The notes beneath the pieces were generated by a model that saw only the letters and a list, made by a program, of their open reading frames with translations, was not told the origin of the DNA and searched no databases. A program made the position numbers and the translations under genes. From positions 1 through 45,564 of the IMG/VR virus record IMGVR_UViG_3300010158_000005: a stretch of 45,564 bases of DNA. One strand, 5' to 3'. The DNA is from a virus. Below, piece by piece: positions 3,522 through 31,228 of this stretch. The number at the start of each line of letters is the position of its first letter. Position 1 is the first letter of the stretch.

Positions 3522-3567
3522 AGTTAATATTTTTACTGTGGTAATTATTTGCTAGGAAATAAATAAA

Positions 3568-3977: not shown

Positions 3978-4132
3978 TGGACACCTTCGACCTGCTTACA
4001 AAAGCATGGCCGATACTTCTAGCCATAATTACTTTGATTATTGTTCTTAGTAAACTAGATTTACGTGTTGCAGTACTAGAAGAAAAAGTTAGAACGCTAT
4101 TTGAATTTTGGAACAAAAGGAATGAAAAATAA
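3977..4132 (+). CDS. Small membrane-anchored protein (51 aa), GTG start, lysis-associated
   Basis: A GTG at 3977 overlaps the preceding TAG, and the TAA at 4130-4132 overlaps the next ATG. The gene is therefore packed exactly between its neighbours. The peptide has a hydrophobic helix at residues 11-24 (WPILLAIITLIIVL) and a charged heptad-like tail (LDLRVAVLEEKVRTLFEFW). It is probably a second spanin- or holin-like partner. The overlaps and the coherent topology support it as a real gene despite its size. Confidence 0.6.
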   Translation: MDTFDLLTKAWPILLAIITLIIVLSKLDLRVAVLEEKVRTLFEFWNKRNEK

Positions 4133-6059: not shown

Positions 6060-6061
6060 CT

Positions 6062-13100: not shown

Positions 13101-14703
13101 ACAGTTTGCTGGCTATGCTGTGCATCCTGATCTTGCTCCTGCTCTTAAATTTGCTTTTGAAGCTAAAGGCAATGCTGCTGTAAATGCTCTTTATACTGTT
13201 TCTCAAGCTACTAAACGCCTTAACGTTATTGGTTCGTTCTTTCACGCTAAAAGTCTTCTGGAAGTACTGTCTAGTACTGGCATACCGATAGTCACTCCTA
13301 TTAAAGAAGTAGCTTTGGGTCTTGTAGATAAGGCTCTAGGAACCCAATACTCAGGCATTAGGAAGGCCGTAGAGCAATTTAAAGCGGGTGGGCTAGGGGA
13401 TAGTGTAGACAAGTGGCAAAGAGATGGCTTGGTTCTTGAGATGCCTAGTGACGTTACTAAGGGATTGTTGGGCAGCACAGGCAAGTTTGCTGACAGTTTG
13501 ATCGGTAAGTTTGGCCCCAAGACTCGTATTCTTGAGTCTACTCTTTCTGCTACTGAGAAATACACCCTAGGTGTCTTTGACAAGATTACTTGGGACTATC
13601 TTCACACTGGAGGCAAACTGTACGTAGCAGACAAGTATCTTGAGAAGGCTCGTATAGACCACGCTAAAGCTGAAGCAAAAAGAATTGAAAAGGTTAAAAA
13701 AGTTATTAAAAATATTAAAGAAATTTCAGATGAATCTTTAAGAATTAAAGCTACATTTGATACTCGGCATGGTCGCACTCCAGAAGAAAGGCAGATAGCT
13801 TTTGAAGAATATTATAAAGAACTAAAGGATAGACAAAAAAGTTCTTTAAAAGAACAACAGGGTTTTTTAAAAGAACAACCTTTTGATGAAGCTGCTTCTC
13901 GTAAGGAGATCACTAGCTTTGTTAACAAATCCTTTGGTGGTTTGAACTGGTTTCAAGAAGCTCGTTCTGCTCAGACAGAGTTTGGCAAACGTATGGCTAT
14001 GGCTGCTTATTCCCCACAAGGGCGTAAAGCTCTACAGATTATGCTGTTTGCTCCTGACTGGACTATTTCTACAATCAAAGCCTTTACTTCAGCTCTTCCA
14101 AAAGGACTTAATCCTACTAAGTGGCACCCCGTAGAGGGTATCAAGGGCATGGCTACTCCCAGTACTAAGGCTGACTACGCTAGGTTGTACCAGTTTAAAA
14201 CTGCTTTGACCTATCTGACCTTGCTTAACGGCATCAATATGCTGACTGCCAACCGTCCTATCTGGGAGAACAAAGACCCAACTCGTATTGAGTGGCCTGA
14301 TGGAACCAGTATGCAAGCTATGAAACACGCTATGGAACCCTACCACTGGATTTCTGATCCCGATAAAACCCTTACAAACAAGCTTGGATTTATTCCTAAG
14401 GCTGCTATTATTGCTGCTACGGGGCTTGAATACGCTAGTCCTACTGCTCCTAAGCTGGTTGATCCTTCTATTGCTAACCGTGCTAAAGCTATTGCTAGTA
14501 TGGCTTTACCGTTCCAAGCTTCTGCTGGTTTGTCTGCTCCTGAAGGTGAGGGCGGTAAGAGAGCGTTATTAGGAACATTAGGTTTCCCTGTTTATGGTAA
14601 AACTAAAGCTGAACGTAAAGCTTCTAATTCTGAACGAGCTAAACAGCTTCGAGAAGCCCGTAAACGTTACAAAGAAAAAGCCAGAGAAAAGGGTTGGGAA
14701 TGA
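10195..14703 (+). CDS. Giant internal virion protein with zincin motif (1502 aa)
   Basis: This is the largest gene of the window. Two short repeats of ESFSFEEASKP open the protein (residues 2-34). Ala-rich helical stretches follow, with a possible membrane-active segment at 135-190. Residues 533-537 read HEVVH in AAHEVVHEG, and the segment SEAEFISMG near 602-610 supplies a plausible third zinc ligand. The protein therefore carries a zincin-like peptidase domain of the sort found in phage polyvalent proteins. The C-terminal third is helical. It probably enters the cell with the DNA. It overlaps the ATP-grasp gene by ATGA, so the two are coupled. The peptidase target is unknown. Confidence 0.72.
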   Translation: MAESFSFEEASKPTATGTESFSFEEASKPSVPSNKQEEAPFLSRQFFEEGMVGRVGKGIGERAARFMLPESTRAAMDAQEKDELSKMGDEAKKGLGRLVSEPGKVASEVGANVRQMGRQMVEHPIDTAVTMLKGIVQDPEFLLIGGLGAVAKTGAITQKLNAASQIAAKTLASGAEGAAVMGGAELAAQTAERKPYDPAALGTQATMGGVFGAGLHAGKEALGMARQTLQRPKASGEAPAPSEAPGAATEPSTPPKTEASTRVDANLREAELATSAGKKLKEAAFMDTETGEYIPQGKSHDEMLKTDPKLIQGFLTEDNSFVTRKEAQIIAENQHADLLTKKVDPKEGLHSTDFGPERMDALKPKEEIKSIEPNTREEYLTSIENIDKRMLELLGKTETKVEDLIALNNERQSLIDKTPDPEPISKATSDRINEALNEWELVGQKNRSSEMSKITSTEDLVNYVQSTLGKEHFVSILLDKMKERMKGWKVEHISEKDWVNQGFKSSWSAGSDPEKSRLAFKGSVGYKIETAAHEVVHEGTQLELEVNPAFKSEIRSIMDAVKSDFKSATDKLLLNQGEDGQMRPTTLVDKQKIKDLRYAFDSEAEFISMGTTSPTVIRLLKDIKYKGKETGFTKFVSAISEALGFSAKEKSAFQHLLEATERGMKSSPDAIPTATTTHTVKGLRTGAPESITPEVDPTRYDPRKVTDEADLKAKGKELYASKGADAAREFFTGYEKYKETWANPVKEVEDFVEININNKMANERIVTNNSNDLKTLVPDAALREQVAIAIDAKKADTLTGAAKEAADKYNGLMKDVGERALKEGVVKGLLENYVTHIVNWADMPKGALETFLGETFGTGSSRGEPGKGMSPESRFGKERKVETFAQLDRVLADINDRIALAGKDFKLEVKTKDIAEIYKEYALSMEKAIENKKLVDSVISIRNPAGESIVRRVTAEEPLPFGWEMIKDRQFAGYAVHPDLAPALKFAFEAKGNAAVNALYTVSQATKRLNVIGSFFHAKSLLEVLSSTGIPIVTPIKEVALGLVDKALGTQYSGIRKAVEQFKAGGLGDSVDKWQRDGLVLEMPSDVTKGLLGSTGKFADSLIGKFGPKTRILESTLSATEKYTLGVFDKITWDYLHTGGKLYVADKYLEKARIDHAKAEAKRIEKVKKVIKNIKEISDESLRIKATFDTRHGRTPEERQIAFEEYYKELKDRQKSSLKEQQGFLKEQPFDEAASRKEITSFVNKSFGGLNWFQEARSAQTEFGKRMAMAAYSPQGRKALQIMLFAPDWTISTIKAFTSALPKGLNPTKWHPVEGIKGMATPSTKADYARLYQFKTALTYLTLLNGINMLTANRPIWENKDPTRIEWPDGTSMQAMKHAMEPYHWISDPDKTLTNKLGFIPKAAIIAATGLEYASPTAPKLVDPSIANRAKAIASMALPFQASAGLSAPEGEGGKRALLGTLGFPVYGKTKAERKASNSERAKQLREARKRYKEKAREKGWE
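12490..12501. repeat. 12-bp near-palindrome GTTACTAATAAC, copy 5
   Basis: Inside the giant virion gene, followed by another GTAAC half-site two bases downstream. Confidence 0.75.
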
Positions 14704-16022
14704 AGCTCCTTATAATTGATACGGGCGGTATGTGCCTTGACTTGGCTATACGCAGCAAAGCTCACGGACATCAAGTACGTTGTTACGTACGAAACAACAA
14801 GGATGGTTCTAGGTCTGAAGTAGGTGACGGTATGATTGACCGTGTGCCGCACTGGGAAGCTCACATGAACTGGGCTGACCTAATCTTTTGTACAGACAAC
14901 AATATGTACGTACACGCTCTTGAGCGTTACAGAGACCAGGGATACCCTATCTTTGGGCCTTCTATAGACACTACACGCTGGGAACAAGACCGTGAGGTGG
15001 GGGCTGATGCCCATTGCCGCTGTGACGTGCCTACAATCCCTATGGAGAAGTTTAAAAGCTACGATGACGCCATAGCCCATGTTATTAATAACCCCGTTAG
15101 ATACGTTTCTAAGCCTCTTGGAGATGGTGAAAAAGCACTTAGCTACGTCTCTAAAGACGCTGCTGATATGGTCTACATGCTGCAATATTGGAAGAAAAAG
15201 AACTCCTATAAAGGTGAGTTTGTTCTTCAGCAGTTTGTTAAGGGTCTTGAGTTTGGGGTTGGTGGTTGGTTTGGTCGTAACGGTTTCTCTAAGTGGTGGT
15301 GTGAGTCCTGGGAACACAAGAAACTAATGAACGACGATCTTGGGGTTAACACAGGTGAACAAGGCACCATTGTTCGCTATACCGAGAAGTCTAAATTGGC
15401 TGAGGATGTTCTTAAACCCGCTGAAGACATGCTGATGGGGCTAGGTTACACTGGCTACGTTGATGTAAATTGCATGATAGACAAGTCTGGTACAGCTTGG
15501 CCCCTTGAGTGGACAATGAGACCTGGTTGGCCTTTGTTTAACATTCAACAATCCCTACACAAAGGTGATCCTATTGAATGGATGCTTGACCTTATCGACG
15601 GTAAAGATACTCTTAAGTGCAGTACTGACGTTGCTTGTGGTGTTGTTATTAGTATTCCCGATTATCCTTATAGTCGTCTTACTAAGAAAGAGTGCTCTGG
15701 TTATCCTCTCTTTGGTCTTACCGAAGAAGATGTCTTAAAGGATATTCACTTGTCTGAAGTTCAGATGGGTAAAGCTCCTTGTATGGTTGATGGTAAACTC
15801 AAGATGAACGTACCGATGTACGTGACTGCTGGGGACTACGTTTGCATTGTTACGGGGTCTGGTAGTACAGTTACAGAGGCTCGTGACCACTGCTACGGTG
15901 TTATTAAGAACAAAATACAGATCCCAAACAGCGTTGCTTACCGTACTGACATAGGCAAAAAGCTTGAACACGATGTTCCAGAACTTAAAAAGCACGGCTT
16001 TGCTACTGGCGTAAGGTATTAA
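14700..16022 (+). CDS. PurD-like ATP-grasp enzyme (440 aa)
   Basis: I start the gene at the ATG at 14700, which overlaps the upstream stop (ATGA). The N-terminus KLLIIDTGGMCLDLAIRSKAHGH parallels the Rossmann-like start of phosphoribosylamine-glycine ligase (PurD, GGREHAL region). The ATP-grasp core is recognisable: FVLQQFVKGLEFGVGG, H206-K-K, N217-T-G-E, then YTGYVDVNC and the metal/nucleotide motif E270-x3-R274 in LEWTMRPG. A C-terminal domain with GSTVTEARDHCY follows. It should join an amine to a carboxylate using ATP. The substrate is unclear, because the loops around GG and EWTMRPGWP differ from housekeeping PurD. Its place among virion genes is unusual. Confidence 0.78.
   Translation: MKLLIIDTGGMCLDLAIRSKAHGHQVRCYVRNNKDGSRSEVGDGMIDRVPHWEAHMNWADLIFCTDNNMYVHALERYRDQGYPIFGPSIDTTRWEQDREVGADAHCRCDVPTIPMEKFKSYDDAIAHVINNPVRYVSKPLGDGEKALSYVSKDAADMVYMLQYWKKKNSYKGEFVLQQFVKGLEFGVGGWFGRNGFSKWWCESWEHKKLMNDDLGVNTGEQGTIVRYTEKSKLAEDVLKPAEDMLMGLGYTGYVDVNCMIDKSGTAWPLEWTMRPGWPLFNIQQSLHKGDPIEWMLDLIDGKDTLKCSTDVACGVVISIPDYPYSRLTKKECSGYPLFGLTEEDVLKDIHLSEVQMGKAPCMVDGKLKMNVPMYVTAGDYVCIVTGSGSTVTEARDHCYGVIKNKIQIPNSVAYRTDIGKKLEHDVPELKKHGFATGVRY
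15081..15092. repeat. 12-bp palindrome GTTATTAATAAC, copy 6
   Basis: A perfect palindrome inside the ATP-grasp gene, encoding Val-Ile-Asn-Asn as in copy 3. Confidence 0.8.
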
Positions 16023-16024
16023 TA

Positions 16025-18826
16025 GTGGCTCAACTACTCCCTCCGATACCTAAAGAACCTATCGAACCAGAGAGTCATGTCTGGAGAGAGTGGTTTAACA
16101 AGGTTAGGAATGTCATTGTTGGTGCAGCTCAAGGAGTTATTTCTTGGGCTTCCCTTAATTTTGACGGTAGCAACATTACGGATATTGTTACTAGGAACCA
16201 CAACGATTTACAGACTATCCAGGGAGGTACTAGCGGTCAGTATTATCACCTTACGGCTACCCAGCTTACAAACCTAGGTACCGTTACAACGGTCTCTGTA
16301 GCCACTTCTAACGGCTTTGCTGGTACTGTGGCTACTGCCACTACTACACCTGTCATAACCCTTAAAACAAGCGTTACAGGGCTTCTGAAGGGTAACGGTA
16401 CAGCTATCAGTGCTGCTACTTCTGGTACTGATTACGCTCCAGCTACTAGTGGAACATCTATTCTGTACGGTAATGGCTCTGGAGGGTTCTCTAACGTCAC
16501 AATCGGTACAGGGGTTTCTTTTGCTGCTGGTACCCTGTCTGCTACAGGATCTGGGGGTACTGTAACCAGTGTTACTGGTACTGCTCCAGTAGCATCGTCA
16601 GGCGGTGCAACCCCTGCTATTAGTCTTAATGCTGGTTATGGCGACACACTAAATCCGTATGCGTCTAAAACTGCTAATTATGTTTTGGCAGCACCTAACG
16701 GCAGTGCAGGTGTTCCTACTTTTAGGGCTTTAGTTGCTGCTGACATACCAACATTAAGTTACGTTCCATACACAGGGGCAGCAAGTGCAGTTGATCTCAA
16801 CGCCCAAAGTTTAACTAACATTAGCCATCTTGGGGTAAACACAACAACTGTTCCTACAATTTTGGCAAGGTTCTTTGGGGACAACAACTCGTCCTCAAGA
16901 ATTGCTGTTAGAGGTTACTCAAGTGATGCAAATAGCTCGTCTATGCGAGTCACTAAATTCAGAGGAGCTTATGCAACGCCCCAAGCGCCTCAAAGTGGAG
17001 ACAGTTTAGGTAAGTTTGAACTTGCAGGATATGGCACAACTTCTTCAGACGGTTATCCACAAGTTTCTTTTGAAGGTGTTGCAACAGAAAACTGGAGTGC
17101 TATAGCTAGAGGAGCAAAAACTTTAATTAAAGTTACTCCCAACACAACAACTGCTCAAGTTACAGCAGTCACAATAGATCAGGACAAGAGTGTTACTTTT
17201 GCAACCACTGCAACAGCAACTACTTTTATAGGAGCATTAACTGGTACCGCATCTGGCAACGTAACCTCGGTTACAGGTACAGCACCAGTAGTGTCGTCTG
17301 GAGGAACTACTCCAGCAATTTCAATGGCTGCTGCTACGACTAGTGTTAATGGCTATCTAACTAGTACTGATTGGAATACGTTTAACAGTAAAGGCAGCGG
17401 GTCAGTTACCAGCGTAGGACAATCCTTTACTGGCGGTTTGATCTCGGTTGCTGGCTCACCGATCACTACATCTGGCACACTAGCCTTAACGGTTGCTGGC
17501 ACCTCTGGTGGTATCCCTTACTTTTCTAGTGCCTCTACTTGGGCAACATCTGCTGCGCTTGCTGCTAGTTCTATTGTAATAGGCGGTGGTGCAGGAGCAG
17601 CTCCTTCTACAACAACCACAGGTACAGGGGTAGTTACAGCTTTAGGAGTTAATACAGGCTCTGCTGGTGCGTTTGTGGTCAATGGCGGTGTTCTTGGTAC
17701 ACCGTCTAGCGGCACTGTTACAAACCTGACCGGCACTGCCAGCATCAACATTAACGGAACGGTGGGAGCCACAACTCGAAATACTGGGTTGTTTACAACA
17801 CTCGGCGCAAACGGTGCGGTAACACTAGGAGGTGCGGCAGCAAGTGTTCACACTTTTGGAACATCGGCAACCACTGGCACCGTGACTATCGGCGGTACCG
17901 CAATGACGGGAACGCTGACTTTTGGTCAATCTACTACGACAAACGCCGTCAACATTAACACGGGCGTAACTGCAAGTGGAAACACAAAGTCAACTTACAT
18001 AGGCACAAACGGTGCTGCGGGTAGCATCAATGCGGTAGAAATGGGTTCTACGTTAGTAACAAGCACAGTTTTGGCTAACGGCAGATTGATTGCATATAGA
18101 ACTACTGCTGCGAGTCTTCCAGGCTTTAGATGTTACGGAACATCAACTGATCAAAACTATATTCAGATTGATAGCACTGGTGGTGGTCAAACCGCTTTAG
18201 GCGTTAACGGTAGTGTTGGCGCAGAACTAGGAACGGGAACAACGGCGTATGCAACTGTTTTAGGTTCTTACGTTAATGTGCCGGTCGAGATAGTTGTAAA
18301 TAATGCTAAGGTTGCGTCATTCGCCTCCACCGGCCTAGCAGTTACGGGAACGCTGAGTGCAACCACAACGGGGAAAGTCGGTACTACATTAGGTGTTGGT
18401 GGTGTAACACCTTCTGCTTCCGGTGCTGGTATATCATTTCCCGCCACACAGTCCGCATCGTCAGACGCGAATACGCTGGATGATTATGAGGAGGGAACGT
18501 GGACGCCAACAGACGCTAGTGGTGCCAGCCTGTCTTTTACAACCGGTAATTGCAGATATACAAAAATAGGTCGCGTAGTTGTTATTCAGGGCAATATTAC
18601 TTATCCTGTAACTGTTAGTGGTGCAGTTGCTCAATTTGCAAATTTTCCTTTTGCATCCGCTGATTCAATATATTTATCCGTCATCTATAGCGACGCTTCT
18701 GTTGCTAGTTTTACTTATTTATCTGGAAACACAACAAACGTATTTTTGTTGATACCTGGCGTAAACGTAACCAATGCAACAATGAGTGGAAAATTTTTAA
18801 CATTTTCCGGAACGTATGCCGTTTAA
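16025..18826 (+). CDS. Large tail fibre (933 aa), GTG start
   Basis: A GTG starts two bases after the ATP-grasp stop. Residues 1-60 form a helical/tryptophan-rich anchor ([14 protein letters not shown], then [22 protein letters not shown]). The rest is Gly/Thr/Ser shaft sequence with two kinds of repeat: [19 protein letters not shown], seen at about 180 and 415, and [16 protein letters not shown] near 560. Around residue 815 a [13 protein letters not shown] segment introduces a C-terminal beta domain common at phage fibre tips. It is probably the main receptor-binding fibre. From roughly 17.7 kb, codon choice shifts towards GCG, GGC and AAC, which suggests a swapped distal part. Confidence 0.8.
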
Positions 18827-21743: not shown

Positions 21744-22178
21744 TTACGAAGGCTCTGGCCTTCCTAACGCTTCCTGGATAAACCCAAGTATCCTTTCGGG
21801 CTGCTTGAAGTCACACCATTCGATACCTTCTTTGTCGCACCACTGAGAATAGGTTGTTTTTGAGGTTTTGTAGATCTTGTTTTGGTGTCGTTGGAAGACA
21901 ACAAGTATCCTAGCCATTGGATGCTGCTGTCGGATGAAAACGAGTTTTTTTCTTCCGGCTGCATCAAGGCGACCTTTGGTCTCAATGTACCACCCTTCTT
22001 TAATTGTCCAGTCTGGGTAGTACCTTCTTTTTTCGGGCGGTGTAACAAAAGGCAGGACACTTGTCTCATAACCGAGGGTATACCCATTCACAATACAGAG
22101 GTTGTTAAAACTGGTTTCAAACTTGGATCGGTGCTTCTTGTTGGGGTATTTCTTTTTTGCTCTCTTCTTTTTTAGCAT
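21744..22178 (-). CDS. Endonuclease I, Holliday junction resolvase (144 aa)
   Basis: This is a T7 gp3-type nuclease that cuts branched DNA during replication and packaging and can help degrade host DNA. With the start at MLKKKRAKKK (22178), the four active-site residues are Glu21, Asp56, Glu66 and Lys68. The spacing 35, 10 and 2 equals that of T7 Glu20, Asp55, Glu65 and Lys67. Matching text includes YYPDWTIKEGWYIETKG and IRQQHP. The frame is open further upstream, but the longer start would overlap the exonuclease far more. The chosen start overlaps it by 62 bases. Confidence 0.88.
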   Translation of the reverse strand: MLKKKRAKKKYPNKKHRSKFETSFNNLCIVNGYTLGYETSVLPFVTPPEKRRYYPDWTIKEGWYIETKGRLDAAGRKKLVFIRQQHPMARILVVFQRHQNKIYKTSKTTYSQWCDKEGIEWCDFKQPERILGFIQEALGRPEPS

Positions 22179-22842
22179 AGTCTTTTGGTGGCTCCCAAAT
22201 CTGGTTAGCTTCTCTCCAAACCCACAGTAACTTGCAGTTTTTGTGGAGCCTCTCATCGTCGTTGTAAGCGGCTCTACAGGCATCATAGTACTCTTCTGGT
22301 AGGAGACCCTCAAGAAGCTTGCCAGCCTTCACTGGGCCTATCCCAGACAAGCCAAAGACGTTATCTGTACGGTCTCCGGTAAGCACTTGAAGGTAGAACC
22401 GCTTAAAACCCTCATCTTGGGTAATTTTGACCATCTCTTTCTTGACAAAGTTGTAGTGCCAACCTGGTACTTGAAGCAGATCTTTGTCTATGGAGCAGAT
22501 AACTGTGCCTTCAAACTTCTGTTCCATGCCTAGACCATCGTCAGCTTCGTAGCCTTTGCAAACTTGAGCTTGCCAATTTGTTACTAAGAACTCTTTGGTG
22601 GCATCTAAGTGTTGTGGACGTATGGTGTCCTTTCGGTTGGCTTTGTACTCAGGATCTACCTTCATCCTGAAGTTGTCTTCCCTGCCTCCAGACAAAAAGA
22701 CCTTGTGACCAGTAGCGTTAACTTCATCCAGGATGTCCCTCATCATCACCCTAGTACGTATAAACGCTATATCCCTATCCTCGTTCTCCGCTGACGCTGC
22801 ACAGCGGTAAGCAACGATGTCGCCATCTATTAGAGCCAACAT
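22117..22842 (-). CDS. 5'-3' exonuclease, FEN/T5-type (241 aa)
   Basis: It carries the acidic motifs of the 5' nuclease family: Asp6-Gly-Asp8, YKANRK at 66-71, EADD at 99-102, SIDKD at 117-121 and TGDRTDN at 155-161, followed by the helix-hairpin-helix GIGPVKAGK at 167-175. It should remove RNA primers and resect DNA ends, the job of T7 gp6. The C-terminal 20 residues are a Lys/Glu/Gln-rich tail. The start is preceded by the early-gene box AACTAGGAGAAA and by two GC-rich hairpins. Confidence 0.9.
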   Translation of the reverse strand: MLALIDGDIVAYRCAASAENEDRDIAFIRTRVMMRDILDEVNATGHKVFLSGGREDNFRMKVDPEYKANRKDTIRPQHLDATKEFLVTNWQAQVCKGYEADDGLGMEQKFEGTVICSIDKDLLQVPGWHYNFVKKEMVKITQDEGFKRFYLQVLTGDRTDNVFGLSGIGPVKAGKLLEGLLPEEYYDACRAAYNDDERLHKNCKLLWVWREANQIWEPPKDYAKKEESKKEIPQQEAPIQV

Positions 22843-22941: not shown

Positions 22942-23478
22942 CTAGGCTGCTTCTTTGGGTACTTCTTCAGCTTCGCTTTCTTTCTTTGCTGCTGCTAGAT
23001 CTAAGTCACCTGCTGTGTAAGCTTCAAACTGCCTTGCCATACGGATTACAAGCGTTGAGGTTGAGTCATCTAAATCAAATGGCTTACCACCCCTAGCTCC
23101 AATGTACAGTTCTGTGGCACGAGCTAAAGCGTTTTGACGAACAATAGAACGATCCCCATGAAGAGCAGGAATAGGAAACACCTTAGCTGAATAGCTGCTA
23201 CCACCACCACTAGAAGCGGGTTTGATACTAGTAACACTAGCTACAGGAGCTGTTCCAGGCGCTCCTTTAGCTGTAACGGTAATGCCTTTAGCCTCTACGC
23301 CGTAGGTTCCTGTCTCACCATCAAAAGCAATGGTATCTCCAACGTTGCAAGGGGGCTTCTTAAAGCCGTGTTTAACCCAGTTACCATCCACTTTCAGTGA
23401 ATAGGTCGGCTTAACTCCAAACCGCGTGGTGACATCTTTGGTGGTGATTGACTCTACAACTCCAGACATTGCACTCAT
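22942..23478 (-). CDS. Putative ssDNA-binding OB-fold protein (178 aa)
   Basis: The first 75 residues look like an OB barrel (VVESITTKDV...TYSLKVDGNWVKHG...VGDTIAFDGE...GITVTA), followed by a Gly/Ser linker. A helical module follows at 100-155 with RQNALARATELYIGA. The C-terminus is acidic with a short Lys break (EAEEVPKEAA), as in replication SSBs. It sits between polymerase and exonuclease and overlaps the polymerase stop by ATGA, the slot of gp2.5 in T7-like modules. I rate the SSB role likely but not proven. Confidence 0.65.
   Translation of the reverse strand: MSAMSGVVESITTKDVTTRFGVKPTYSLKVDGNWVKHGFKKPPCNVGDTIAFDGETGTYGVEAKGITVTAKGAPGTAPVASVTSIKPASSGGGSSYSAKVFPIPALHGDRSIVRQNALARATELYIGARGGKPFDLDDSTSTLVIRMARQFEAYTAGDLDLAAAKKESEAEEVPKEAA
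23224..23235. repeat. One-mismatch copy GATACTAGTAAC of the dispersed palindrome
   Basis: It differs from GTTACTAGTAAC at position 2 only. The same variant occurs at 26732, inside the helicase gene. Confidence 0.5.
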
Positions 23479-25481
23479 ACTGTTCTCTCTTTCATTTCAA
23501 ACCAATTTTTACCCACTGAGCACCCTGCACTTAGCTTCAGGGCTAGTGGGAATCCGAAAGTCTTCTCAAAATACACGTGCGTGTTTGTCAATACATTGAA
23601 CACCTCCTTTATTGTTTCCTCTAGTTGACCATCAAGTACATCGAATAGTATGGAGTCATGTACTGTGTTTACAAGCCTCACACCCATGTGGTCTTTAAAT
23701 TTACGGTAAAGAATGCCAAGCATCATTGGAACAATGTCGCCTGTTGCTAGTCCTTGCACGGGGTAGTTCTTTAGTTCTGTGGGGCTAAACGTGTACTCTT
23801 TCTTGGTTGCCCAAACTGAGTCAGCGTATTTATTTTTGTATTGCTTGAACACGTAGATTCTACCAGTCTCACTCTTGAATCTCCAGGTTTTACTAAACTC
23901 ATAGCCATCAATTACGCTGTCGTGTAGACCTTCTTCTTCAGCTCTTTCAGCCATGTCTGTGTGCCACAGTTTGACACTTGGATACCTAGCGTAGAACGTC
24001 TCTATAAACTTCTTAGAAATGTCTATGTCGCATCCAGCGTTGTCAGCTAATGTCTTAGCACCAGCACCATAGATCAAACCAAATGTAAGCCGTTTAAACC
24101 ACTTACGTTCATCTTTGGTAGGTTCCACGTGGAACATATCCTTGTACAGCTCTGTGTGAATGTCCTTGCCTGTACTGATATCTGTGATGAGTTGTCTGTC
24201 TTTTGTTACGTGAGCTAGTACAGCAACCTCAAGCTGAGAAAAATCAAACTCAACTAAGCTGCCATCTTTTATTCCATACCTAGAACAAAAGATCTTTTTG
24301 ATAGGATTGTTGCTGATGTTTTGTAAGTTAGGACTGCTAGAACTAAGTCTACCAGTTGATGTAGATACGTGAGTCAGTCTACCGTGAATAAAATACTGTC
24401 CTTCTTTTTTTTCGTCGTGGTCTATTACGTGTTTGCTTAAACCCTGTACATAAGTACTTAGTTGTTTTGTTAGGTCTCTATGTTGTAGTAGTTTGTCTGT
24501 TATTTCTTTTACTGTTGTTTCTTTAGTACTAGTATTTATATATGTAAGTACTTTCTCGTCTACTGAGACCTTGCCAGTCTTCTCACTTTTCCACTCATCA
24601 AGAGCAGCAACGTCAGAAAAAGGCGGTGTAGCAAACAAAGCAGTTACTTTCTTAGTTTTTGGTTTACCATTCTTGTACAACCCAACAACTTCTTTTGAGT
24701 CAACTTTTTTGATGCCACCAAAGAAAAACTTACTCCACTGAAGAGAACTGTTGATGTCTTCTATTGGGTAAAAATCACTACCAATGAATGTACCCAAATA
24801 GTCTTTAAGGATTGTTTCGTTGTCAGCAAATTTGATAGCTACTTCAGCAGCGTAGGTCTTGTAGTAATCCATATCTACAGCTAAACCGTTGTACATCATT
24901 TCAGTAGTAGCGTGTATGGCTTCCATCTGACTGATAATAAGATTTAACATGCCTTTCTCAGTAGCTTCTGCCATCTGCTTTTCAGCTATCTGGTGAGTAT
25001 TAAAGACATCCCTGTTTAGATAGTCTTCCAGAAGCTCAAAAGGAACCTTGTCAGCACCAAGACCTTTGTTGAAATAATCAGTAACAGCAGAGTCTTTGAC
25101 AGGTAGCCCATACTTTACAGCCATACTATCCAGGGAAGGAAACTTAAGCTGTTGCCCTGACAGCAAATACTCAGCAAGTTGTATATCCCAAAGACGATTT
25201 TTTTGTAGTTCAAGTTTACAGGCATAGTCTTTGTACAGGTACTGCAAGTCAAACGAAATGTTGCTACCAACTATAAAATCGTACTCATGAGACTTTAGCC
25301 AGTGAGTAAAATTACTAATAGAAGGTTCTGGGTACGCCCTATAGAATAAACCAGACCCCTCATTACACAATGTTCCTAGTAACACAACCTTATTCCCAGG
25401 ATACATTGGATGAGCTTTGTCTAGCTCTCCAGGTGCATCCATTGTTGTTTCTACATCAAGTGTGAGCAATCTCACTTTCAT
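23475..25481 (-). CDS. DNA polymerase I family replicase (668 aa)
   Basis: This is a T7-type family A polymerase. The N-terminal 3'-5' exonuclease domain opens with the ExoI motif (LTLDVETT, Asp9 and Glu11). Polymerase motif A is DFSQLEV with Asp413, motif B is KRLTFGLIYG with Phe467 and Tyr471, and motif C is HDS at 608-610. RLSSSSPNLQNIS precedes motif A. The residue equivalent to E. coli Phe762 is Phe467; T7 has Tyr at this place. There is no 5' nuclease domain, which is supplied by the separate exonuclease gene. The start follows AACTAGGAGAAA directly. Confidence 0.93.
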   Translation of the reverse strand: MKVRLLTLDVETTMDAPGELDKAHPMYPGNKVVLLGTLCNEGSGLFYRAYPEPSISNFTHWLKSHEYDFIVGSNISFDLQYLYKDYACKLELQKNRLWDIQLAEYLLSGQQLKFPSLDSMAVKYGLPVKDSAVTDYFNKGLGADKVPFELLEDYLNRDVFNTHQIAEKQMAEATEKGMLNLIISQMEAIHATTEMMYNGLAVDMDYYKTYAAEVAIKFADNETILKDYLGTFIGSDFYPIEDINSSLQWSKFFFGGIKKVDSKEVVGLYKNGKPKTKKVTALFATPPFSDVAALDEWKSEKTGKVSVDEKVLTYINTSTKETTVKEITDKLLQHRDLTKQLSTYVQGLSKHVIDHDEKKEGQYFIHGRLTHVSTSTGRLSSSSPNLQNISNNPIKKIFCSRYGIKDGSLVEFDFSQLEVAVLAHVTKDRQLITDISTGKDIHTELYKDMFHVEPTKDERKWFKRLTFGLIYGAGAKTLADNAGCDIDISKKFIETFYARYPSVKLWHTDMAERAEEEGLHDSVIDGYEFSKTWRFKSETGRIYVFKQYKNKYADSVWATKKEYTFSPTELKNYPVQGLATGDIVPMMLGILYRKFKDHMGVRLVNTVHDSILFDVLDGQLEETIKEVFNVLTNTHVYFEKTFGFPLALKLSAGCSVGKNWFEMKERTV

Positions 25482-25629
25482 TTTCTCCTAGTTGGTCTTC
25501 GTCTATGTGTTCTAGAGCTTCTTCTTGCTCTTTGATCCACTCTTCTTCAAGTTGCTGTTTGTGTCTTATTGTTGTTTTCTTTTTTGCTTTAGCAAGATCT
25601 TCGTCATACCACCGTTTATGGCTATTCAT
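25456..25629 (-). CDS. Small charged protein bridging helicase and polymerase (57 aa)
   Basis: An ATG eight bases inside the helicase end opens a 57-residue frame that stops 26 bases inside the polymerase gene. It fills an otherwise empty gap of 140 bases. The peptide is helical and strongly charged (LAKAKKKTTIRHKQQLEEEWIKEQEEALEHI), probably a coiled coil with an acidic tail. The ribosome-binding site is weak, so translational coupling to the helicase is likely. Function unknown. Confidence 0.55.
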   Translation of the reverse strand: MNSHKRWYDEDLAKAKKKTTIRHKQQLEEEWIKEQEEALEHIDEDQLGENESEIAHT

Positions 25630-26887
25630 AACGTGCTCTTAACGGATCAATTTTAACCATGTACTGACCATGCCGTTCTCCTTCTACTTGGTACCTACCA
25701 CCACCAGGGAGTTTATTCTTTGGAATATTGATTGTTCTTAGTAACGATTCTTCTGGGGTGCTTGGTGCTTGATATTTACCGATAGTAATGATTGCATCAG
25801 CTTCGCCTGGTTTGTCTGTCTTAGAACCACGCAAGGCGTCCATGCCAATAAACGGAGGATCTTTCATGGTATCTACATTACCGTTTAGTTGGCTAGCAGC
25901 AATCACAGGGCCGTATTCACGAGCACACTCTCGACCCCACTTGTAGATACGACCCAACCTAAGATCCTCACGTTCTTCTTTGTGGAACCCTGAGATCTTA
26001 TCCAAGGTATCAAAGATAATCATGCCTGGATTAACGTCTTTAAACAGAGCTGTGAGAGTCTTTACGTCGTTGGTGTCACCCTTAGTGATGATTACTTTCT
26101 TGGCGTTACCGCCCATGTAAGTAACGTAGTCTGCCATCATTTTGTCTTTGTCTTCGACAAGTTCTTTAGTTGTCTTTCCAAGAGCTGCTTGAACAACCCT
26201 GAAGAACACAGCTTCGCTTTCTTCTTCGTTGTTTACCCAGACAATTGGACGGTCTTTAGGCAGTTGTGGAGCTATGTAGCTAGCTTCACTGGCTAGAAAC
26301 GTTGTCTTACCAACCTCTACACGAGCAGCAACAATAACAAAGTTACCCGTACGAAGAAGACCAAGACTACGATTAAGAGCCATAAGACGCCACTCGTAAC
26401 CAGTAGAAACAATACGATCAACAATAACGCCGATGTCAGGTATGACAAACATTTCGTCCTTGTCCACATACCGTTCAACATTGCGTAGTGCTTCTACTGT
26501 GAGAGAGTTAATAGCTTCTATGTTAGAAGATCCATCTCGAACCTTACCGCATTCATCAGCAATTCGAGCAACGTAATCCATCTCAATAAGAGTTTTAATA
26601 ACTTCATCGTAGGCTAGCGTTGGTGTAAACGTTTCCATCTTTTTGATTATATTACGAACTATGGAGATCTTGTCAGCAGTTAATCGCATTGCGTACGTAG
26701 CAAACAAATAACTGCTAAACGGCTCCCAGTTGATACTAGTAACAGCAGGAAAAACCTTGTAAAACTCTCCCATTGTTTCAAGAATTGTTACAGTTTCAGA
26801 CTGTATTACGTGGTTCTTTATGTACGGTCTGTACTTGTCGTAGTTGTGCTTTGATTCAGCACATAAGAACAGTATGTCAAAGTCCAA
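25622..26887 (-). CDS. Replicative DNA helicase, DnaB/T7 gp4 type (421 aa)
   Basis: A RecA-fold motor occupies the C-terminal half. Walker A reads ARVEVGKTT (188-196), with Ala replacing the first Gly. Walker B is GMIIFDTLD with Asp293. Later motifs include AASQLNG and a glycine-rich loop near PGGGRY. The N-terminal 150 residues are helical, as in DnaB-like helicases. It lacks the zinc and TOPRIM domains of T7 gp4, which are encoded by the overlapping upstream gene (overlap eleven bases). It should unwind the fork as a hexamer. Confidence 0.85.
   Translation of the reverse strand: MDFDILFLCAESKHNYDKYRPYIKNHVIQSETVTILETMGEFYKVFPAVTSINWEPFSSYLFATYAMRLTADKISIVRNIIKKMETFTPTLAYDEVIKTLIEMDYVARIADECGKVRDGSSNIEAINSLTVEALRNVERYVDKDEMFVIPDIGVIVDRIVSTGYEWRLMALNRSLGLLRTGNFVIVAARVEVGKTTFLASEASYIAPQLPKDRPIVWVNNEEESEAVFFRVVQAALGKTTKELVEDKDKMMADYVTYMGGNAKKVIITKGDTNDVKTLTALFKDVNPGMIIFDTLDKISGFHKEEREDLRLGRIYKWGRECAREYGPVIAASQLNGNVDTMKDPPFIGMDALRGSKTDKPGEADAIITIGKYQAPSTPEESLLRTINIPKNKLPGGGRYQVEGERHGQYMVKIDPLRARYE
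26732..26743. repeat. One-mismatch copy GATACTAGTAAC of the dispersed palindrome
   Basis: Identical to the variant at 23224. It lies within the helicase gene. Confidence 0.5.
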
Positions 26888-27701
26888 AATATTTCCTCAA
26901 GTTGTCTGGAGTTAAGTTCTTAGGTTCAGGAACAAGGCTACTTGTCATGTTCTTGATTTTTATTTTGCTTGGCAAACAAACCATCAGTCTTTGTAGTATT
27001 TTTAATGAAGCTTTTTGTCCTGGTTCATCTGGATCTAGCCAAATAATTACTTTTTTATAGTGAACTAGTAGGTTTATTGTTTCGTCGGGTATAGATGTTT
27101 TTAATAACGCTACTGAAGCATGGTGTGTATCTCTACACACACGATAAGCACTCGTGTAGTCTTCAGTTATTACTATAACCTCTGTATCTTTATTAAACCA
27201 AGATACTCCTGTGCTTAGTTTTTTGTAATATGTTGTTTTGTATTTTGATTTTGTTGGGTCAAAGCTTCTTAGTTGATACCCGTATTGTTCATTAGCATAA
27301 TTACTTATTGGAAGATAAAGTTCTTTACAAAACTCTTTAAAGTTACGTCTATCTTGATCATCAGTAGTAGGAAACACATGGTGTTTAGCTAACCAATTGA
27401 CAATATCAGCACTGTGTACATTTCCAGGTCTAAGATTAAACCCATCAGTACGTCCTACTCTTGGCATATCATCTGTTTCGCTAAACAACCATTTCCTAAG
27501 TACTGTACCATCAGTAGAAAGCTCTCTCCAAAACCCATGATCGGAGCAATGGTGACAGTAAGCTACCACTCCTCCAACTACATGTTTGATATAGAGTCTT
27601 TTCTTACGGTCTACACCAGCATCACAGCCTTCGTGATCTATGTTTATCTGCTCCCCTATAGCCAATACGCTATAAGGTTGCAGTAGTTTTCTGTCGATCA
27701 T
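26877..27701 (-). CDS. DNA primase, TOPRIM type with zinc finger (274 aa)
   Basis: The N-terminal zinc-binding region includes Cys26 and the CHHC cluster at 49-52. The TOPRIM catalytic elements are VIVITED with Glu180, and IIWLDPDEPGQ with Asp223 and Asp225. The size and domain order equal the primase half of T7 gp4, here as an independent protein. It overlaps the helicase gene downstream by eleven bases and the AAA+ gene upstream by one base, so the three are co-translated. It should make primers for lagging-strand synthesis. Confidence 0.85.
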   Translation of the reverse strand: MIDRKLLQPYSVLAIGEQINIDHEGCDAGVDRKKRLYIKHVVGGVVAYCHHCSDHGFWRELSTDGTVLRKWLFSETDDMPRVGRTDGFNLRPGNVHSADIVNWLAKHHVFPTTDDQDRRNFKEFCKELYLPISNYANEQYGYQLRSFDPTKSKYKTTYYKKLSTGVSWFNKDTEVIVITEDYTSAYRVCRDTHHASVALLKTSIPDETINLLVHYKKVIIWLDPDEPGQKASLKILQRLMVCLPSKIKIKNMTSSLVPEPKNLTPDNLRKYFGL

Positions 27702-28834
27702 TAGGATGTTTTAGTACCGTAGATTTTACGGAAAAGTTCTTTAGAAACTTTTTGTTGTGTTTCGGTAAGCTTGTTTGTGTAAGAAAGATCAATAGCAGTA
27801 ACTAAAGCATACCCATATACGTGTTTCTTACAGATTGCTTGAAGTGCTCTAGGAGACATCGTGAGCGTAAGCTGTCCAGAAGAATACCCTTGACGAATCA
27901 GATTGGCAAACTTAACCAAGTTCTTGATCCAGTCTGCGGGGATACCAGGAAACTTACCGTTAAGCATCTTACACTCAACTGCTTCAGCCATGTAGCCCAT
28001 TCTTACTGTAGTTCCAAAACGATCTAACGTAGCTGTATTCTGTACGTTTGTACCGCTATGAGCACCTGTGTCATCGCCTTGGCCTTGTGTGTTACCAAGA
28101 GCAACAATACGAAACCTGTCTTCAGGCGTAATAAATTTATCAGCAGATGTTCCAGGCATCTCTTTGAGAAACAACTTGCCGTTCTCTTCCAGAAGCCACT
28201 GGAGACCCATGCTGATCTCAGAAGGGGTAACGTCCCACTCATCCCAAGCAAACACGGCTCCGTAACGTACAGCCTCTGTCAGGGTGCCATCTGTCCAGTA
28301 AGTAGAACCATCTTTGGCTTGTTGCTGACCAAAGATCATTGAGCTGTCCATGTCGCCTGTACAATTCAACCGAAAGAATGGACGACACGTATGAGCACAA
28401 AGCTGTTCAATGCAAGAACTTTTACCTGCTGCTGTTGGGCCATACACCAACACTTTCTCGTTGTTCTCCCAAGCCAGCAAGATGTCCTTGGTGACTGTTG
28501 CATCAAGAACATAATCAGGATCTACAACTGGAATGAAAGCTCGAATGCGTTCATCCCAATCTTCCGGTCTATAAACAGCAACTGGAAAGCTAGAATCAAA
28601 AGCAAGTAACGGAAACAACTTTTTTGCATCCATGTGTTTCTCACTAGTACGAAACTCAGGTGTTACTGTAGTAACTTTTTTAGTCGTTACTTCTACGTGT
28701 GGAAACAAATCAAGCGGATCAACATCAAATCCAGGGATAGTGGCTTTCTCTGCTGATACGCGCTTAGTCAAAGCATCTTTGATTGCGTCTTTAACCAAGT
28801 CTTCAACAGGCTTAACTACTGCGGGGCTAGTCAT
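27701..28834 (-). CDS. MoxR/CobS-like AAA+ ATPase (377 aa)
   Basis: After an N-terminal extension of about 70 residues comes a full AAA+ module: Walker A GPTAAGKSS (132-140), Walker B VFAWDE (Asp198, Glu199), sensor 1 with Asn248 in ALGNTQ, and an arginine finger Arg272 in LDRFG. The sequence around FGQQ..TYWTDGTLTEAVR is characteristic of the CobS/MoxR branch. It overlaps the VWA gene upstream by eight bases. Such pairs act as chaperone-like remodelling motors, in which the VWA protein selects the target (cobaltochelatase CobS-CobT, NorQ-NorD, RavA-ViaA). No chelatase partner CobN or cobalamin gene is present, so a different target is likely. Confidence 0.85.
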   Translation of the reverse strand: MTSPAVVKPVEDLVKDAIKDALTKRVSAEKATIPGFDVDPLDLFPHVEVTTKKVTTVTPEFRTSEKHMDAKKLFPLLAFDSSFPVAVYRPEDWDERIRAFIPVVDPDYVLDATVTKDILLAWENNEKVLVYGPTAAGKSSCIEQLCAHTCRPFFRLNCTGDMDSSMIFGQQQAKDGSTYWTDGTLTEAVRYGAVFAWDEWDVTPSEISMGLQWLLEENGKLFLKEMPGTSADKFITPEDRFRIVALGNTQGQGDDTGAHSGTNVQNTATLDRFGTTVRMGYMAEAVECKMLNGKFPGIPADWIKNLVKFANLIRQGYSSGQLTLTMSPRALQAICKKHVYGYALVTAIDLSYTNKLTETQQKVSKELFRKIYGTKTS

Positions 28835-30749
28835 TTAGCAATTTCCTCTCTATAAGTTCAAGCAATTTGGTGGGTATTTCTTCTGGCTCATTTACTGTAG
28901 AACAGTGTTTGTAGTACTTAAATACTGACTCATCACATAAACCTAAACCATATATCTCAACTCGTTTGTTACTTTCTATCTCTTGTATTACTTGTTTTGT
29001 AAAAGCTGATAAGTCATAACTGCTAAAGCTTGCAGCAGGTTGACCGTCAGACATTACAATTAACAACCGTTTCTTTTCTTTGCGTTTAATTAACCTGTCA
29101 TACGCCCAAAGAATTGAGTCACCATCTGGATTACCTGTCATGTGGTCTGAGCTGCAAGCTATGTTTTGAACCAAAGCTTCTTCAGACAATTTGAGTGCTG
29201 CAAAAGACTTGTAAATATAGTTAACTGGTGTGTTTATGCTGTGTGAATTATCAGTAAAACCAAGAATCTCAACCGGTACTTTAAGAACACCAAACACTTC
29301 ATTAAGAAGTACAGCAGCTTCACAAGCAAAAAACACTTTATCGCCAGACATACTTCCTGACATATCAATTAATACAGTTACAGCAGCATCAAGAACGGTA
29401 TTAGTAACTTTCTTCTTAAAGATACGTTCAGAGAATCCAGGTGTCTTAAGAGCTAACCTAGCCAACCTTGCGTAGTCCATCTTGCCTTGCTTAGTGCCAT
29501 ATTCGTACTGAGTCTTTGCTCGTATCTGTATCAAACGACGTACTTGTTGAGCAAAGTTATCAATGCGAGTTACTTTACTTTCTACTCTTTTGTAGAAATT
29601 CTTTATAAAAAAGTGAGAAGCTGCACTATCTCGGTTTAAAAGATAATCAAACCCATCTGAAGCTGTGTTTTTTATGTAATCTACTGTGATGTAGTCATCA
29701 ATTGAAGCAGCAAGCCAGGTGTAGTCTCTATCACCAACTTCTATCTTGTAGAGCAACCCAGTCTTGTTCATACGATCTTTTTCTTTTGTGTCGTGTGTAG
29801 ATACAAGCTTAGTGTCTATGTCTGCAAGCTCTACACGAACAACTTGCCACTGATCTTTAGTGATTTTCTTAGATTCATCATCTGATTCAGCATTTCCAGC
29901 AGCTCCAGACTCACCTAAACCTTCTATTTCTTCGCCTTTATCGGCTACTTTTTCTTCTTTTGGGGCTTTTTCGTCAGTTAATGGTGGTTTTTCTTCTGGT
30001 TTGGAATCTTTTTTTGTTGCTTCGGTTGGTTCTCCCTTCGGGGATTCTTTTTCTTCCTTACCGCCATCTTTAGCTGGTTTAGGAGGTTCTTTGACTCGTT
30101 TCTCTTCAGCGTCAGGATCACCCCCTAGAGCTTTAAAGATGTCTCTGGCTAGGTCATAGGTCATTGCTGATCCTAGCTTCTTTCCTGGCTCTTCCTGAGC
30201 GTCCAGGAGCCTATTTGAGAAGGGTTCCAGAGTCTTATCCATCTCCCCATCGGTTTTAAACCGACTTCCAGACAACTCACACTGAGGAAACAGCCTAGAA
30301 CTGACCTTGGTATCCCACTTAATGAGGGATTTGATGATTTTGTTTAAAGGACTAGCTTCTTCTTTTGTTTTTTCTCGTATTTGGTCAAGCAAAAGAGGAC
30401 AAGATTTATCCCAAAGCTCTCTAAACCCCTCATATTCGGTTGCTTCCAGGGCATTAACCCTAGAGTCTTCCAGAACGTTCCAGATAAACCCAAGAGGACT
30501 TGTTTGAGCACTGATTTTCTTTTCTCGAAGAATACCGAAGTCTGAATACAGATCGTGGGCTACTTCGTGATCTGTACTAGCCATAATGCTGTCAAGTTGC
30601 TCTTGAGTTGTGTGTCTGGTAATTCTGGGCAGGTAGATTGTTTCTCCGTCGTGCCTTGGTTGGCATTCGTCTTCAAATACAACACGGAGATTTGCTCTAC
30701 CTGCTGAAGCTTTTACGTACCTAGCTACGTCTAAGCCTTTAATCAACAT
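28827..30749 (-). CDS. CobT-like protein: N-terminal zincin motif plus C-terminal VWA (640 aa)
   Basis: Residues 61-65 read HEVAH, and a second motif NVLEDSRVN (91-99, Glu94) follows 29 residues later, so the N-terminal domain looks like a metallopeptidase. A charged, Lys/Glu/Pro-rich linker runs from about 215 to 300. The C-terminal VWA domain has a complete MIDAS start, Asp462-x-Ser464-x-Ser466 in DMSGSMSG, and the later motifs MTGNPDGDS and VMSDGQP. Its partner is the overlapping AAA+ gene. CobS/CobT-like pairs are known from some phages (for example Caulobacter phiCbK). The biological target is unknown. Confidence 0.82.
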   Translation of the reverse strand: MLIKGLDVARYVKASAGRANLRVVFEDECQPRHDGETIYLPRITRHTTQEQLDSIMASTDHEVAHDLYSDFGILREKKISAQTSPLGFIWNVLEDSRVNALEATEYEGFRELWDKSCPLLLDQIREKTKEEASPLNKIIKSLIKWDTKVSSRLFPQCELSGSRFKTDGEMDKTLEPFSNRLLDAQEEPGKKLGSAMTYDLARDIFKALGGDPDAEEKRVKEPPKPAKDGGKEEKESPKGEPTEATKKDSKPEEKPPLTDEKAPKEEKVADKGEEIEGLGESGAAGNAESDDESKKITKDQWQVVRVELADIDTKLVSTHDTKEKDRMNKTGLLYKIEVGDRDYTWLAASIDDYITVDYIKNTASDGFDYLLNRDSAASHFFIKNFYKRVESKVTRIDNFAQQVRRLIQIRAKTQYEYGTKQGKMDYARLARLALKTPGFSERIFKKKVTNTVLDAAVTVLIDMSGSMSGDKVFFACEAAVLLNEVFGVLKVPVEILGFTDNSHSINTPVNYIYKSFAALKLSEEALVQNIACSSDHMTGNPDGDSILWAYDRLIKRKEKKRLLIVMSDGQPAASFSSYDLSAFTKQVIQEIESNKRVEIYGLGLCDESVFKYYKHCSTVNEPEEIPTKLLELIERKLLND

Positions 30750-30763
30750 AATTTAAATTCTCC

Positions 30764-31228
30764 CTAAGATGAACACGACTTAAGTTCGTCACTCATAACT
30801 GCTAAATGAGCTTGCACAGTTTCACGTTCTGCTGGAGTTAGTTTTTTAATGTTATTAATAACAACTAAGCAACATGCCTGAACTTTTTTAAACAAATTAA
30901 TATCTGCTGTAGTTTTAAGGTGTTTGAGTTTTATTTGAATGTGGCTTTTACCTAGTATTTCACCATTGATACCAGTTAAAGAAACGCTTTCTTTTAAAGC
31001 AGAAAGCACAATACTTTTAGCTGATCTCCAGGGACTTGGCATTGAGCTAATTTTGTATTCACTTTTGATGAGTTTCTCAACTTCTTTAAGTTCTTTAGCA
31101 AAAGCGTGGTGTTCAGAGTTAGCAAAGCTGGCTGTAACCATTTTTGTCCAGCAGTTATCGCTGCTAGCATCTGAAGCAAGACTGTTTGTTGCTGCGTCAT
31201 ACAACAAAGACTCGTGTAGTACACTCAT
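30764..31228 (-). CDS. Hypothetical protein upstream of the AAA+/VWA pair (154 aa)
   Basis: Mostly helical protein, Ser-rich at the start (SLASDASSDN) and Lys-rich in the middle, with no motif I recognise. The phrase MPSPWRSAKSIVLSALKESVSL and the C-terminal helix LTPAERETVQAHLAVM suggest a compact helical bundle. It precedes the VWA gene by 14 bases, so it may be the third component of the ATPase system. That link rests on position only. A perfect dispersed palindrome lies in its coding sequence. Confidence 0.6.
   Translation of the reverse strand: MSVLHESLLYDAATNSLASDASSDNCWTKMVTASFANSEHHAFAKELKEVEKLIKSEYKISSMPSPWRSAKSIVLSALKESVSLTGINGEILGKSHIQIKLKHLKTTADINLFKKVQACCLVVINNIKKLTPAERETVQAHLAVMSDELKSCSS
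30851..30862. repeat. 12-bp palindrome GTTATTAATAAC, copy 7
   Basis: A perfect palindrome inside the 154-residue gene. Read on the minus strand it again encodes Val-Ile-Asn-Asn. Confidence 0.8.

Follow-up and report, generated by a model that had tools for sequence, protein, structure and literature searches.

A CobS/CobT-like AAA+ ATPase and zincin-VWA protein pair beside the replication genes of phages

The three-gene set and its operon

The IMG/VR virus record IMGVR_UViG_3300010158_000005 comprises 45,564 nucleotides, and this whole stretch is referred to here as the window. At positions 27701-31228 it encodes a 154-residue protein, a 640-residue protein that joins a zincin-like domain to a VWA domain, and a MoxR/CobS-like AAA+ ATPase, the last two forming the pair examined below (Table 1). 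Transcription of the minus strand runs through the 154-residue protein, the zincin-VWA protein and the AAA+ ATPase into a TOPRIM primase, a DnaB-like helicase, a family A DNA polymerase (PolA), a 178-residue protein and a 5'-3' exonuclease. The three-gene stretch is meaningful only jointly with the primase, helicase and PolA genes downstream (23475-27701). An original prediction from the sequence alone had described overlapping AAA+ and zincin-VWA genes here, preceded by that for the 154-residue protein, and all three open reading frames (ORFs) were found on the minus strand where it had placed them.

Table 1. Features of the three-gene set and of the adjoining replication genes in window coordinates
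Feature	Coordinates	Strand	Evidence
MoxR/CobS-like AAA+ ATPase, 377 residues	27701..28834	-	Pfam AAA_5 9.6e-15; phrog_249 9.9e-65; TIGR01650 114.8 bits
Zincin-linker-VWA protein, 640 residues	28827..30749	-	CobT_C 8.1e-25; phrog_1576 7.1e-57; TIGR01651 114.5 bits
Zincin-like N-terminal domain, residues 1-214	30108..30749	-	AlphaFold2 pLDDT 95.5, pTM 0.91; VIA-align; dN/dS 0.118
HEVAH, putative zinc-binding/catalytic motif, residues 61-65	30555..30569	-	HExxH conservation among phage homologues
NVLED, residues 91-95, E94 presumed third zinc ligand	30465..30479	-	E94 in 84/91
Charged low-complexity linker, residues about 215-380	29610..30107	-	Variable; dN/dS 0.549 vs L014
VWA domain, residues about 381-640	28830..29609	-	MIDAS DMSGS at 29352-29366, D542, D568
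All-helical 154-residue conserved protein, first gene of the set	30764..31228	-	Relatives in 25 loci; dN/dS 0.096
TOPRIM primase	26877..27701	-	Toprim_4 1.1e-8; overlaps AAA+ stop as TAATG
DnaB-like helicase	25622..26887	-	DnaB_C 5.3e-12
Family A DNA polymerase (PolA)	23475..25481	-	DNA_pol_A 4.5e-60
Replication-operon conserved protein, 178 residues	22942..23478	-	phrog_18140 2e-9; 28 loci
5'-3' exonuclease	22117..22842	-	5_3_exonuc_N 1.1e-12

As read from the sequence, the zincin-VWA and AAA+ genes overlap by 8 nucleotides (ATGACTAG), and 1 nucleotide is shared by the AAA+ stop and the primase start (TAATG), which makes translational coupling from zincin-VWA through AAA+ to primase plausible. 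The idea that the second overlap ties expression to replication holds in part: the overlap exists and the pair adjoins replication genes, but the 1-nucleotide coupling is confined to the closest relatives. Beyond these, the wider pattern is adjacency to whatever polymerase, primase or clamp genes the phage carries. A promoter scan of the window was uninformative, with fewer promoter-like sites than in shuffled sequence, and tRNA and Rfam searches of the window gave no match.

The AAA+ ATPase and the zinc site of its partner

The AAA+ protein carries a Walker A motif (GPTAAGKS, 28418-28441) that is kept in 86/86 AAA+ homologues, a Walker B motif (DE, 28238-28243), the sensor N248, and R272 and R329. 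Besides the Pfam match to AAA_5 and that to PHROG 249, annotated 'porphyrin biosynthesis', a PDB search with its profile matched midasin, CobS (6e-75), CbbQ and NorQ. With these motifs, and with an adjoining co-directional VWA gene that bears a MIDAS, the protein has the features of a MoxR-clade AAA+ ATPase with a VWA partner. Direct tblastn identified relatives of the AAA+ protein in 532 phage records, of the VWA protein in 39, and of the 'peptidase' of cyanophage S-CRM01 in 463. The Rhizobium phage member is matched by 1013 plasmid records, a count that includes canonical CobT and other VWA proteins; many of the plasmid matches listed are of phage-plasmid size. By sequence similarity, the pair belongs to a widespread phage family whose members are labelled cobaltochelatase CobS/CobT, 'porphyrin biosynthesis' or 'peptidase'.

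The 640-residue protein matches CobT_C/VWA in Pfam as well as PHROGs 1576, 17276 and 5298, and its match to the CobT N-terminal family is weak (2e-5, residues 8-111). It contains HEVAH at residues 61-65, the presumed third-ligand Glu 94 within NVLED, and a MIDAS composed of DMSGS (462-466), D542 and D568. For conservation, 133 homologues and the window protein were reduced at 80% identity to 91 non-redundant full-length virus proteins; repeat contigs (L094, L117, L126, L127, L148, L149, L159, L160 and L166), the window's own loci (L001, L012 and L013), 11 split-gene loci, partial or short ORFs (<500 residues) and matches below 150 bits were left out. HExxH is intact in 80/91 of these proteins, its Glu is kept in 90/91, and the third-ligand Glu (NxxED, E94) in 84/91. 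The MIDAS residues D462, S464, S466, N540 and D542 are present in all 91, and D568 in 90. Two exceptions are of spacing or alignment: L055 has HExxxH, and the HELSH of L051 is displaced by the alignment. Six of six further proteins, from five T4-like phages and one Acinetobacter plasmid, also have HExxH. Since HExxH is found in 80/91, the MIDAS D/S/S in 91/91 and Walker A in 86/86, the motifs of the pair are not due to chance, and the predicted union of an HEVAH metallopeptidase-like domain with a VWA domain of intact MIDAS is borne out.

Among 29 canonical CobT proteins (28 above the TIGR01651 cut-off and one annotated Cereibacter protein), HExxH occurs in none, yet the same N-domain aligns, and E94 and the MIDAS are present in all 29. 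A tree of 109 rows was built by a quick method with midpoint rooting and with the motif columns included; it omits L031 and L157, uses every second canonical CobT (15/29), and does not give the direction of change. The 15 canonical CobT proteins lie on one side of a fully supported branch with a long stem, and five Kyanoviridae on one side of another. Canonical CobT thus shares the N-domain with the phage homologues but is a clade apart from them. The state of HExxH changes at seven points of the tree, canonical CobT being one, and an independent-pairs test of HExxH against E94 offered too few informative pairs. In the split-gene loci, a free-standing zincin ORF with HExxH and the ED helix is found in 10/11; in the eleventh, HExxH was not found in either ORF and the split position differs. 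Such natural splits into separate neighbouring zincin and VWA ORFs occur in L057, L074, L083, L093, L113, L114, L118, L119, L121 and L155. The zincin is thus a conserved and modular part, lost in several lineages. Members without the zinc site at L005, L006, L060, L073, L103-L105 and L129 have lost both His residues while keeping the HExxH Glu (xExxK or similar), which suggests that this Glu may have a role beyond catalysis.

The N-domain (residues 1-214) was modelled with AlphaFold2 from 74 sequences (pLDDT 95.5, pTM 0.91). In the model, HEVAH lies in a helix spanning residues 49-68 and E94 in the following helix (85-105), the zincin layout of HExxH and third ligand. When candidates from Foldseek were aligned with VIA-align, zincin peptidases dominated the high rows, all with Z under 8: BepA (5.4), selecase (5.2), ArdC (4.9), an M48-like peptidase (4.5), two M1 aminopeptidases (4.6 and 4.1) and M61 (4.1), the clan names of these peptidases being in part presumed. 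The best row, at Z 7.0, is a Mycobacterium regulator, which we take to carry an IrrE-type domain, and the clear non-zincin among the rows is a NOT1 domain (Z 4.6). Because the VIA-align rows are consistent and the zinc motif is present, the modelled N-domain is accepted as zincin-like, with a putative peptidase function; the zincin fold that had been predicted thus has a confident model and mostly zincin rows behind it, but its fold matches are weak.

At the profile level, the N-domain also matches CobT of known structure (9uka, 2.3e-5, and 21vu). PDB entry 21vu pairs a 206-residue N-terminal CobT fragment with a 104-residue CobS fragment matched by the C-terminal part of the AAA+ profile, and these chain names and lengths suggest that the phage N-domain may dock on the AAA+ ring. 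No canonical CobT chain is among the fold-search matches listed, which is evidence neither way. A docking surface of this kind would also suit a pure ATP-driven remodeller, in which the zinc site is structural or vestigial and the N-domain merely docks the VWA protein on the ring; canonical CobT retains the domain without the site, and several phage lineages dropped the site while keeping the rest. We consider this quite improbable, as HExxH is kept in 80/91 homologues over long divergence and in 10/10 free-standing zincin ORFs.

The homology of the pair to CobS/CobT, and a proposal that viral cobST uses host CobN for cobalamin synthesis, made for archaeal tailed viruses in the available text of PMC8651126, favour a cobaltochelatase in which the phage proteins join host CobN and raise cobalamin, for example for a class II ribonucleotide reductase (RNR); an RNR-like match is present in 40/51 virus records. 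This explanation is nevertheless very improbable. CobN (PF02514) was found in 0/51 virus records, the window included, against 51/51 for CobT_C, and the E. coli control genome gave no CobN match, though one relative is an Escherichia phage. The scores of the window proteins lie far below the equivalog cut-offs (TIGR01650 CobS, 114.8 against 558.55 bits; TIGR01651 CobT, 114.5 against 759.05 bits), and the phage-type zinc site, HEVAH with E94 in the window, stands against the absence of HExxH from all canonical CobT. A B12-independent class I RNR small subunit occurs in 26/51 records, none of the 40 records has an RNR-like match over the class II cut-off, and a search of the window proteins gave neither an RNR-like match nor a class I small subunit. 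From the CobN and RNR results it follows that hijacking of CobN is unlikely as a general explanation, in line with the original prediction, which had doubted a cobaltochelatase role for want of a CobN or cobalamin gene. That role was rejected on the absence of CobN from virus records, the scores under cut-off and the presence of the zinc site, and B12-dependent RNR was rejected as its general rationale, given the class I small subunit in 26/51 records and none in the window.

Two side observations bear on cobalamin. Class II enzymes may still exist in records that have an RNR-like match and no small subunit, L099 and L102 being examples of loci in such records. Of 120 genomes sampled from the phylum of genome G001, 28 exceed the CobT cut-off, and four of these 28 (G014, G022, G081 and G121) show no CobN; the Caulobacter vibrioides control likewise has CobT over the cut-off and no CobN match. 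Unless draft gaps are responsible, this hints weakly that in cells, too, CobST may act without CobN or outside cobalamin synthesis.

Replication neighbourhoods and competing roles

In the clade of the window, the order 154-residue protein, VWA, AAA+, primase, helicase, PolA, 178-residue protein and exonuclease recurs. Homologues of the window primase lie near the pair in 50 loci, of the helicase in 50, of PolA in 39, of the 178-residue protein in 28 and of the 154-residue protein in 25, some of these loci being fragments and a few sharing a contig. Of 90 representatives, 51 have a co-directional DnaE gene that starts at most 5 kb downstream, 23 a primase gene at most 3 kb downstream, and 74 at least one of the two. 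At least one tested replication gene is present in the flank of 80/90 representatives, the flank helicase counts resting on the window helicase query alone.

The same association is found in quite different phages. In the T4-like S-SM2, ACG-2014f, MED4-213, vB_OspM_OC and S-CREM1, the pair is flanked by the gp46/gp47 recombination nuclease genes on one side and by sliding clamp or clamp-loader genes on the other; the fetched flank of a sixth, S-CRM01, contained neither gp46/gp47 nor clamp or clamp-loader genes. Polymerase, primase or ligase genes are close to the pair in ICP2, SSU5, nickie, BUCTxx99, Cyrano, RHph_X66 and T5S1, and were not near it in CRP-810. The pair therefore adjoins replication genes in unrelated replisome settings, namely PolA podoviruses, DnaE phage-plasmids and T4-like cyanophages. 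Outside the window clade, a neighbour scan covering 135 of 355 collected neighbours, DnaE-sized proteins excluded, returned an unnamed family, sigma factors, regulators, ligase, integrase and primase as the commonest PHROGs. PHROG 3616 (24/135) and PHROG 3741 (11/135), neither of which has an assigned function, and the sigma factors of PHROG 351 (13/135) recur beside the pair in this set.

The two genes themselves are inherited together. VWA and AAA+ genes share a strand and are no more than 1 kb apart in 90/90 representatives, in the order VWA-AAA in 82 and AAA-VWA in 8, and their distance matrices correlate at r=0.946 over 86 loci. Comparison with locus L014 points to purifying selection: dN/dS is 0.118 in the N-domain (residues 1-214), 0.158 in the VWA end, 0.123 in the AAA+ protein and 0.096 in the 154-residue protein, while the linker stands at 0.549.

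A role in virion assembly or maturation, in which the MoxR-vWA proteins help to assemble tails or heads as a chaperone and structural proteins are trimmed by the peptidase, was proposed by Iyer et al. in 2021 for the identical architecture in group 2.2 jumbo phages (PMC7824862, available text), and p618/p892 of Acidianus two-tailed virus (ATV) serve as a precedent, as cited in the accessible parts of PMC7824862 and PMC7911831. For the present pair this role, which the original prediction had also entertained, is improbable in view of the neighbourhoods. Primase, helicase and polymerase genes adjoin the pair in the window and its relatives, and recombination and clamp genes enclose it in the T4-like phages. 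In the window, terminase, portal and head closure genes are on the plus strand, opposite to the pair, and the 25 commonest of the 82 PHROG families among the 135 neighbours scanned in other clades include no structural family. Thus, the pair is probably not a virion-assembly factor.

Counter-defence, in which an ArdC-like zincin would shield the phage from host restriction or other defence factors, or remove these, at entry or in early replication, is rather unlikely. Anti-restriction ArdC is among the better fold matches of the N-domain (Z 4.9), and phage ct2os315, the nearest named terminase relative, has no annotated pair and encodes an ArdC protein upstream of a primase-like gene. Its terminase is 45% identical to that of the window, and the ArdC-type anti-restriction zincin lies at 15863-16711 of locus L218. 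This placement is a hint toward counter-defence from one single genome, and the broad retention of the pair in T4-like cyanophages, where cobS is given core status in the available text of PMC3037559, suits a core function better than an accessory one. PADLOC matched none of the three proteins, which counts weakly because it covers defence and not counter-defence; the earlier suggestions that the system remodels or proteolyses a host complex or counters a defence were guesses.

The 154-residue protein has relatives in 25 loci, all in the clade of the window, so that the three-gene set recurs in other phages in the order 154-residue protein, VWA and AAA+, but only within this clade. Its model is all-helical (pLDDT 87.7, pTM 0.66). 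A PDB fold search with the model gave no match at E<=0.001, and a PHROG search of the protein at E<=0.1 gave chance-level matches only. A match to AcrIIA26 in a PDB profile search (4e-4) was taken as chance, because the matched fragment gave no tblastn hit in phages and because AcrIIA26 is a Cas9 inhibitor, as described in the available text of PMC13089141. The protein is likely an accessory factor or substrate adaptor of this clade. One locus, L042, contains two divergent copies (3428-4006 and 5791-6261).

Elsewhere in the window, a plus-strand protein of 442 residues among the late genes (14694-16022) is phosphoribosylglycinamide synthetase/ATP-grasp-like (GARS_C 4.1e-7, below the cut-off). 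The structural half also encodes very large proteins of 1502 residues (10195-14703) and 933 residues (16025-18826); neither matched in the Pfam search, and the 933-residue protein had no match in the PHROG search.

A proposed machine and its relation to known systems

The reading that we favour, and to which we give about an even chance, is that the pair works as a MoxR-type machine driven by ATP, in which the VWA adaptor hands a protein substrate to the zinc peptidase attached to it while replication is under way. It builds on the anatomy of the pair, its intact motifs, purifying selection and co-inheritance, the absence of CobN from virus records and the recurrent adjacency to replication genes. 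The AAA+ protein would form a ring, by homology to CobS, NorQ, CbbQ and midasin. The VWA domain would capture a substrate peptide through the metal site of its MIDAS and couple it to the ring, and the zincin domain at the N terminus, kept close to the ring, would cleave or nick the substrate so presented. Made along with the replication proteins, the machine would act at the replication stage, and its likeliest target would be a protein complex at or near DNA, such as a host roadblock, a complex engaged in defence or repair, or an intermediate of phage replication. Ring assembly, proteolysis itself, the timing and the substrate class are what we infer.

Several results weigh against this proposal. 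Adjacency is not function, and the early modules of phages hold defence and metabolism genes too; 16/90 representatives have neither DnaE nor primase within the downstream distances given above, and in 10/90 none of the tested replication genes is in the flank. The matrix correlation is expected of any vertically co-inherited pair. Foldseek of the N-domain model against the PDB returned nothing significant, with no E below 1, and the structure matches are weak, the best Z of 7.0 being a level that the tool flags as a possible common arrangement. Lastly, the zinc site is lost in several lineages that keep the rest of the protein; therefore, proteolysis is not always needed. These losses, in about six phage lineages, suggest that remodelling can persist after proteolysis is gone.

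A bolder version is possible but doubtful. It holds that the pair is an AAA+/VWA zinc protease that clears or processes protein obstacles at the phage replication fork, following a Cdc48-SPRTN-like logic. Such a protease would be common to phages with unrelated replisomes and would have gone unnoticed behind cobaltochelatase or porphyrin labels in hundreds of genomes of phages and phage-plasmids, CobT being a zinc-dead branch. The point matters since cobS is habitually listed among the auxiliary metabolic genes for vitamin B12. Should the pair prove to be a replication-stage zinc protease of the AAA+/VWA kind, the ecological reading in terms of B12 would be wrong for most phages, and a core step of host takeover or replication would have been overlooked. 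A simple motif test, the presence or absence of HExxH...NxxED, separates the phage type from canonical CobT, and relatives in ICP2 and SSU5-type phage-plasmids make the functional re-assignment directly testable.

Among known systems, cobaltochelatase CobS/CobT (TIGR01650/TIGR01651; 9uka, 21vu) shares with the phage pair the AAA+ partner, a homologous N-domain and a VWA domain with MIDAS. Unlike the phage protein, CobT has no zinc site, works with CobN and forms a separate long-stem clade. A MoxR-clade ATPase with a VWA/MIDAS substrate adaptor is likewise found in RavA-ViaA, NorQ-NorD, CbbQ-CbbO and midasin. To our knowledge, the VWA partners in these systems carry no zincin domain. ArdC, BepA/M48, selecase and other zincins show weak fold similarity to the N-domain, and we know of none that is coupled to an AAA+/VWA machine. 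The account of RavA-ViaA and of the VWA partners of MoxR-clade ATPases given here draws in part on the accessible text of PMC7159879.

Closest to the present genes are two published viral sets. The MoxR-vWA pair with an N-terminal metallopeptidase in group 2.2 jumbo phages, assigned to virion assembly by analogy in the available text of PMC7824862, has the same two-gene architecture, a likeness taken from description and not from alignment; the window differs in being a 45.6-kb record with a PolA/primase/helicase operon, and the evidence here points to the replication stage. The viral CobST cluster (phrog_249, phrog_1576, phrog_17276 and phrog_459) comprises homologous adjacent genes, including the cyanophage core cobS and 'peptidase'. 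It is described as widespread in the accessible text of PMC8651126, where the 'peptidase' label is called a mistake; contrary to this remark, the HExxH...E site is intact in most of the phage forms compared here. For marine T4-like cyanophages, cobS is reported as a core gene (PMC3037559, in part), and another cyanophage study, as far as its available text goes, regards the AAA+ protein as a MoxR ATPase whose function is open (PMC9964418). In the open-licence literature, no title or abstract was found that contrasts the phage and canonical CobT zinc sites or places the pair at the replication stage. The architecture is thus already published, and what is new is the zinc-site contrast with CobT, the zincin-leaning N-domain model, the count of 0/51 for CobN and the adjacency to replication genes across replisomes.

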